64,000 bases of DNA. Source: Malacoplasma sp. (GTDB lineage: Bacteria; Bacillota_I; Bacilli_A; Mycoplasmatales; Mycoplasmoidaceae). Of the stretch, positions 32,694 to 34,174 are shown in pieces. Both the position numbers and the translations under genes were made by a program. Each line of letters starts with the position of its first letter. Position 1 is the stretch's first letter. Under the pieces are notes generated by a model, which saw only the letters and a program-made list of their open reading frames with translations, searched no databases and was not told the DNA's origin. The stretch is taken from NCBI GenBank assembly GCA_021444005.1, contig JABUSB010000001.1, positions 1 to 64,000 of the forward strand. Reading direction: 5' to 3'.

Positions 32694-33980
32694 CTATCCT
32701 AATGCAAGCTGCATTGGGTCATAAACTTCTTTTTTAAAATCACTAATTTTAGAAAATCCGTTATACCCCATTCCAGCTCCATATGAATTAACACCAACCC
32801 CTTCTGGATCATCTTGTGCTAGTGCTACAATTGCTTGAGTTAATAAATCTGCAATTTTAGTATCGACGCTTTTACTAAAGATGCCGATATCATAATTTGC
32901 AGGATTAGTAACTGTTAAAATCTTGATTTTGTTATTGTTAATTGGTGAAAAATCTTGGTTACTATTATCATTATGGGTTCAAGAAAAAGAACCTTCATCA
33001 CTAAATGTAATTACAAAATTTGAATCCTTCCCAATTTTGTAAGTACCAGAAGAATCAGTGTCATATTTACCTGGGTTTTGGGATCTATCATTAGCTAATG
33101 TAAAATCTTGTCCTAAACTAGTAAAGTGTTGTTTAATTAAACTTTGCTCTAACAAATAATTCCCAGTAGACCCATTTTCTCCCAACACAATACCTAAATT
33201 ACGGAAACTATTTCAGTCTCTTTTATCCCATGCTTCAATTGCACTTTGAATTTTATCATCACTTCCAGATAATACAATCATTCCCCGATACCCTGCAACT
33301 AGAGGAGCACTTGTATCATAAAATGCATTGTATCTTACCCCATTCCAGTCATAATTAGGTGCTGCTCCTTTTGCATCTTTTCATTGTGAAAAATAGTGAT
33401 AAGAATTAGAATCCCAACTCCATTTAGAAGCGGAAGTAGAAGATGAAGATCCAGAATTAGAACTACTAGTAGAAGTATCACTAGTAGTTTGGACAAAATC
33501 ACTGCCAAAACTAGCTTTTTGCATATTGTTAGCAATCACTCTTAATGGATCAGTTTCACTTCCATCCTTATAAACTTGACTAATATCAGTATCAAAAGTA
33601 AAGGGAGTAGTTAAGGTTTGAATTAAAGGTTTAACTTGCAAATATACATCGTTATTATACAAATAGCGCGCAGTCACGAAAGTAAAATCAGCACTTCCGT
33701 TTAGTACTGAATTTAGTTTGGTTTGTTTATCATCAATGTTTTTAACATTAATTGTAATATCTGCCAAACTCGAAGTTGTTTCATCTTTTGCTTTTAATTC
33801 ATTAAACTTTTTTGCGACATTATTAGCAAAAACATTGTAATCTCCCTCATTAGAAGGAGTGGACAATACAAATGTGTATGTATTGCTATTGGAACTACAA
33901 GAACATACTAAAACAGTTGTAGAAACCAATGAGAATGTTGAAACCAATAAAGGTGTAAAAATTTTTTTAGATAATTTCAT
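32694..33980 (-). CDS. p37-type substrate-binding lipoprotein (thiamine transporter)
   Basis: A 428-aa extracytoplasmic binding protein. The N-terminus is a lipoprotein signal (MKLSKKIFTPLLVSTFSLVS...VLVCSC), with acylation at one of the adjacent Cys. The mature part starts TYTFVLSTPSNEGDYNVFANNVAKKF and contains GSADFTFVTARYLYNN, as in p37/Cypl proteins; M. hyorhinis p37 binds thiamine. A Ser/Thr-rich insert (TSDTSTSSSNSGSSSSTSAS) interrupts the domain and may be a surface loop. It is first gene of the operon behind a TPP riboswitch and terminator. Two TGA codons encode Trp. Confidence 0.9.
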
Positions 33981-34004: not shown

Positions 34005-34034
34005 AATAAAAAAACTTCCCATCAGGAAGTTTTA
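34005..34034 (-). terminator. Riboswitch expression-platform terminator
   Basis: Nine-base-pair stem (AAAACTTCC / GGAAGTTTT) with a five-base loop followed on the minus strand by a T-run, located between the TPP aptamer and the p37 start codon. It fits transcriptional attenuation when TPP is bound. Confidence 0.85.
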
Positions 34035-34049
34035 ATATTATAAGAATAT

Positions 34050-34141
34050 GTTATCTTTTGCCTCCGCTAGTATTAACTAGATCAGGTCATAAGCGTATAT
34101 TCTCAGCTATATTTTTATATAGCACCGCCTGATAAATTACG
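34050..34141 (-). promoter_or_regulatory. TPP riboswitch (THI element) controlling the p37 operon
   Basis: On the minus strand the segment shows the conserved TPP aptamer elements in order: GGCGGTGC, a P3 hairpin (GCTATAT / ATATAGC), GCTGAGA, then ACCTGATCTAGTTAATACTA leading into AGCGGAGGCAAA, closed by a P1 stem TTATC/GATAA. The blocks TGAGA and ACCTGATCT...TAATACTAGCG are hallmark bases of Rfam family RF00059. An intrinsic terminator follows. Binding of thiamine pyrophosphate should shut off the downstream transporter. A TATATAAT-like -10 box lies just upstream (34143-34155). Confidence 0.93.
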
Positions 34142-34174
34142 TTATTATTATATATTTAATTTGTGATTTTAAAT

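Follow-up and report, generated by a model that had tools for sequence, protein, structure and literature searches.

A predicted TPP riboswitch in front of the p37-p29-p69 transporter operon of a Malacoplasma species

The leader and the operon behind it

We analysed a window of 64,000 nucleotides from Malacoplasma sp. (GenBank assembly GCA_021444005.1, contig JABUSB010000001.1, forward-strand positions 1 to 64,000), in which a leader lying downstream of tuf, on the same strand, opens into a three-gene transporter operon. In the order of transcription, the main features are the following.

34147..34152, minus strand: TATAAT, read from the sequence as the promoter -10 box of the leader, with a predicted start at about 34140
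34040..34139, minus strand: TPP riboswitch aptamer (RF00059), 61.5 bits against a gathering cut-off of 54.3 bits
34001..34033, minus strand: predicted intrinsic terminator, a 10-pair stem (34033-34011) with 3 G-C pairs and a T-rich tail
32694..33980, minus strand: p37/Cypl thiamine (pyrophosphate)-binding lipoprotein, 428 aa, PF06646 339 bits, NF045838 306 bits
31953..32690, minus strand: p29 ABC ATPase, 245 aa, PF00005 (ABC_tran) 106 bits
30239..31981, minus strand: p69 permease, 580 aa, two PhnE-like halves, TIGR01097 121.8 bits in 2 stretches, PF00528

The aptamer match runs on the minus strand from 34139 to 34040 and covers the RF00059 model over its full length (positions 1-105) with an E-value of 1.2e-9, calculated for the whole window against all 4227 Rfam families. 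RF00059 is the sole Rfam family that exceeds its own cut-off in the window, and a genome-wide RF00059 search of the 984 kb assembly returned this TPP riboswitch and no other. The initial annotation had recognised the aptamer on the minus strand from the blocks GGTGC, GCTGAGA, ACCTGATCT and TAATACTAGCG, all of which we found there, and the covariance scan that it had proposed as a check bears this reading out, the score lying over the family threshold. The alignment with its structure line displays the conserved core (CUGAGA, ACCUGAUC and UUAAUAC..GCG) together with the P1-P5 pairing. The element shares with the RF00059 family (THI element) the full-length aptamer, the P1-P5 helices and the core motifs, as well as the position upstream of a thiamine-type transporter and a predicted terminator platform; it differs in that it lacks the optional stem that can follow P3 before the 3' strand of P2 (10 model positions deleted) and in that the antiterminator partner is not constant within the genus. 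By sequence, the assignment as a TPP riboswitch is well supported, with ligand binding as a prediction.

The TATAAT box was not listed by the promoter consensus scan and has no good -35 element with it; a TATAAT within 25 nt 5' of the aptamer recurs in 28 of 31 p37-linked leaders, including 11/11 in the window's family. At the other end of the leader, the terminator scan identified the tail TTTATTTTTA, and the extended terminator hairpin folds at -11.8 kcal/mol. As the scan by itself does not rise above chance in this region (2 found versus 1.8 expected), we consider the terminator at 34033-34011 credible because its position and its folding back it. A Shine-Dalgarno sequence (AAAGGAG, ~33995-33989) lies 3' of the terminator and 5' of the p37 start at 33980, which is 60 nt past the end of the aptamer match. 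The order aptamer, intrinsic terminator, p37 therefore stands as first annotated, and the originally proposed span of 34005-34141 does contain riboswitch and terminator, except that the T-run does not end at 34005 and reaches 34001.

The operon was likewise identified correctly at the outset: p37 scores above the cut-offs of PF06646 (27 bits) and NF045838 (225 bits) and matches the solved p37 structures 3e78 and 3myu, the best NCBIfam match of p29 is PhnC (176 bits, under the cut-off of that equivalog), and the TIGR01097 score of the two-half, PhnE-like p69 is below the equivalog cut-off. Thus p37, with its CypI domain above cut-off, and the linked ATPase and permease genes are all present. 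The window p37 belongs to the same lipoprotein family as Mh-p37/Cypl of Mycoplasma hyorhinis and MG289 of M. genitalium (PDB 3e78, 3myu) and, unlike these, carries a Ser/Thr-rich insert near residues 163-200 (window ~33494-33381, minus strand), which sits between two conserved stretches and outside the alignment to the solved relatives. ThiT transporters under TPP riboswitches, as represented by Lactococcus lactis thiT (PMC8862789), are likewise a case of riboswitch-controlled vitamin import; ThiT is an ECF S component, whereas the window encodes an ABC importer of PhnCDE type that includes a lipoprotein. The terminator scan found no terminator-like site separating p69 from the glycosyltransferase and RDD genes that lie downstream, and on this ground the transcript may extend past the three genes.

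The form of vitamin B1 that is imported

Three TPP-enzyme domains were found in the genome. By contrast, profile searches detected neither the TPK catalytic domain, nor the TPK B1-binding domain, nor ThiL, and a homology search with the TPK of a same-genus relative retrieved no homologue, the latter search and that with PF04265 each having limited power alone. With the genome 96% complete in 13 contigs, an absent TPK could also fall into an assembly gap, or the activity could belong to an enzyme that goes unrecognised. Because TPP enzymes are present and no TPK or ThiL was detected, TPP or something already phosphorylated is the cargo pointed to, with TPP itself the most probable substrate of p37-p29-p69. 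The ABC importer would bring in this form, which the cell would need for its pyruvate dehydrogenase- and transketolase-type enzymes, being predicted to be unable to make TPP from thiamine. The initial annotation had the transporter take up thiamine or its phosphates under TPP control, a proposal that the gene identities, the riboswitch and the terminator support at the level of inference.

Thiamine or TPP is described as the ligand of the solved p37/Cypl family members, and a paper on syn3A metabolism argues that, once TPK had been deleted, TPP enters directly through a p37-like system (PMC6609329). The residues with which Cypl contacts the diphosphate are largely missing in MG289 (PMC6609329), and p37 homology alone therefore leaves the transported form unfixed. 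MG289 is described as thiamine-binding, so that the riboswitch could be real and the operon nonetheless import unphosphorylated thiamine, to be phosphorylated by an unrecognised kinase. Across the order, p37 was found in 131 of 320 genomes, the TPP riboswitch (RF00059) in 217 and TPK in 80, the cross-tabulated totals (131, 217 and 80) agreeing with the order-wide searches. TPK accompanies p37 in 3/131 genomes, one of them (G238) in the same genus, which suits thiamine import, versus 77/189 of the other genomes, a pattern that runs along family lines and lacks phylogenetic independence. Against thiamine import, 128 of the 131 p37 genomes have no detectable TPK, and none of the searches of the window's own genome found TPK or ThiL. 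We therefore regard import of unphosphorylated thiamine as unlikely and prefer TPP or phosphorylated thiamine as the cargo.

A second thiamine importer in the same genome was considered and rejected, as the sole match to the ThiT profile (24.1 bits) is under the cut-off of 25.8 bits. It is a 315 aa ECF S-like protein (L067:1375-2322, plus strand, contig C5 near 151300) without a TPP riboswitch, since the only one in the genome is that of the window, and we do not take this putative S component as ThiT.

The predicted switch

Three segments of the leader take part in the alternative pairings discussed here.

34124..34132, minus strand: UCAGGCGGU, 5' strand of P1/P2, predicted antiterminator partner, pairing with 34030-34022 in nascent folds
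34061..34065, minus strand: GGAGG, 3' strand of P4, antiterminator contact in five genus relatives and a weak alternative in the window
34022..34030, minus strand: ACUUCCUGA, terminator 5' arm and loop, antiterminator 3' partner by leader folding

In stepwise folding of the growing leader, which ignores ligand, Mg2+ and pausing, the aptamer with P1 forms first, P1 is then undone as CUGAGAAUAU pairs with AUAUUCUUA, the antiterminator between UCAGGCGGU and ACUUCCUGA reaches a probability of 1.0 at 120-124 nt, and the terminator wins (0.96) only once the T-run has been made. The pairing of UCAGGCGGU with 34030-34022 amounts to 7.6 expected pairs compared to 2.9 in shuffled sequences, a value reached by 1% of shuffles. 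When P1 was enforced, mimicking TPP, the terminator stayed intact. A GGAGG(P4):CUUCC antiterminator, drawn by eye from relatives, was discarded, as its probability is ~0 in the window and a UCAGG:CCUGA helix is favoured.

On the basis of these folds, we propose that at low TPP CUGAGAAUAU would pair with AUAUUCUUA and undo P1, that UCAGGCGGU would next pair with ACUUCCUGA and capture the 5' arm of the terminator, and that RNA polymerase would then continue into p37-p29-p69. At high TPP, the ligand would hold the aptamer with P1, the terminator would form and the operon would be off. The leader is thus predicted to be a classic OFF switch that acts by transcription termination.

The partner of the terminator arm changes by species (L044-L049, L050-L054): in five genus relatives the arm pairs with the 3' strand of P4 (probabilities of 0.86-1.0 per base over GGAGG), whereas the 5' strand of P1/P2 is its partner in the window and in other genera. 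Arm sequences vary among the relatives and complementarity to some part of the aptamer is kept, with the antiterminator pairing in several relatives weakly backed (a value reached by 15-37% of shuffles). As automatic terminator detection gave no plausible hairpin for many second-family leaders, this platform comparison rests on 18 leaders with hand-chosen terminator arms. In the G286-G294 branch the partner is the 5' strand of P2 and the hairpin includes the Shine-Dalgarno sequence, so that control there may be translational.

That equivalent hairpin lends some weight to a scheme in which the window leader, too, acts chiefly on translation or mRNA stability and its hairpin is not an efficient terminator, a scheme that we judge improbable because the window hairpin ends in a T-run and AAAGGAG (~33995-33989) lies outside it. 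That the aptamer has decayed and lost TPP binding, as its moderate score and the placement of some relatives under the RF00059 cut-off might suggest, is very hard to reconcile with a full-length match over the cut-off that has every core motif, and with a core that shows no variation in six species of the genus, whose P3 sequences differ but still pair. With ligand binding, switching and the transported form all inferred, we consider it highly likely that the riboswitch represses its own importer of TPP or phosphorylated thiamine by termination.

Riboswitch and importer across the order

The initial annotation suggested searching other p37 operons of the Mollicutes for the same arrangement. 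Among the 150 high-scoring riboswitches listed, 61 are in p37 genomes, and every one of these (61/61) lies upstream of p37 on the same strand, 153-320 nt from the p37 match. In a selection of 20 p37 genes from beyond this high-scoring set, 11 have a riboswitch upstream and 9 do not, and a universal linkage of p37 and riboswitch was dropped on this account. A riboswitch is present somewhere in 122 of the 131 p37 genomes; the order-wide search gave no RF00059 match in the other nine, one of which (G117) has a weak match under laxer filters. At five loci (L089, L090, L091, L092 and L104) the p37 genome has its TPP riboswitch elsewhere, outside the stretch upstream of p37. At four others (L107, in G289, and L093, L094 and L096) p37 has no detectable TPP riboswitch upstream, and these absences are probable losses; G289, in which p37 is present and the riboswitch was not detected, carries the window's family label.

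Where p37 is absent, we read five riboswitch loci, and the next gene encodes a membrane protein in 5/5. The Thia_YuaJ (ThiT) profile scored 53 bits, 30.6 bits and 19.2 bits (below cut-off) at three of them and had no match at two; the protein at L061, one of these two, is 31% identical to the riboswitch-linked ThiT-like protein at L059. These riboswitch-linked membrane proteins argue that the TPP riboswitch, judged by gene context, is the mark of a B1 importer across the order. In three p37-less and TPK-less relatives the riboswitch precedes a membrane protein of 188-213 aa (L061:692-1303, plus strand; L017:896-1462, minus strand; L006:1574-2215, plus strand). No Pfam family matched the L061 and L006 proteins at E 0.1, and all three are unannotated candidates for thiamine or TPP import.

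The initial annotation had considered riboswitches uncommon in such reduced genomes, a view that the 217 RF00059-positive genomes of the order and a published Mycoplasma hominis case overturn. In M. hominis Sprott, a TPP riboswitch was reported next to p37 genes in 2015 (PMC4498124), as in the window; in that strain it is flanked by p37 paralogues arranged in tandem, whereas in the window a single p37 precedes p29 and p69. TPP riboswitches had been described in mycoplasmas in 2009, in M. conjunctivae (PMC2697654), and a 2025 survey found the Mycoplasmatota to be riboswitch-enriched (PMC12452182). The pairing of riboswitch and p37 is thus common in mycoplasmas and published for a relative, and the window case is largely ordinary.

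Metabolite-sensing RNA control appears, then, as a normal mycoplasma trait that outlasts genome reduction, and the window case supports the notion that p37 systems are importers of the cofactor itself. Most p37 mollicutes might sense exactly the molecule they import, TPP being scavenged intact and TPK lost in a closed, import-only circuit, and in p37-less, TPK-less relatives a ThiT-like protein under the same riboswitch may also import TPP; we hold this proposal to be evenly balanced. With p37 and riboswitch occurring without TPK, the form of vitamin B1 that p37 handles becomes a directly testable question.
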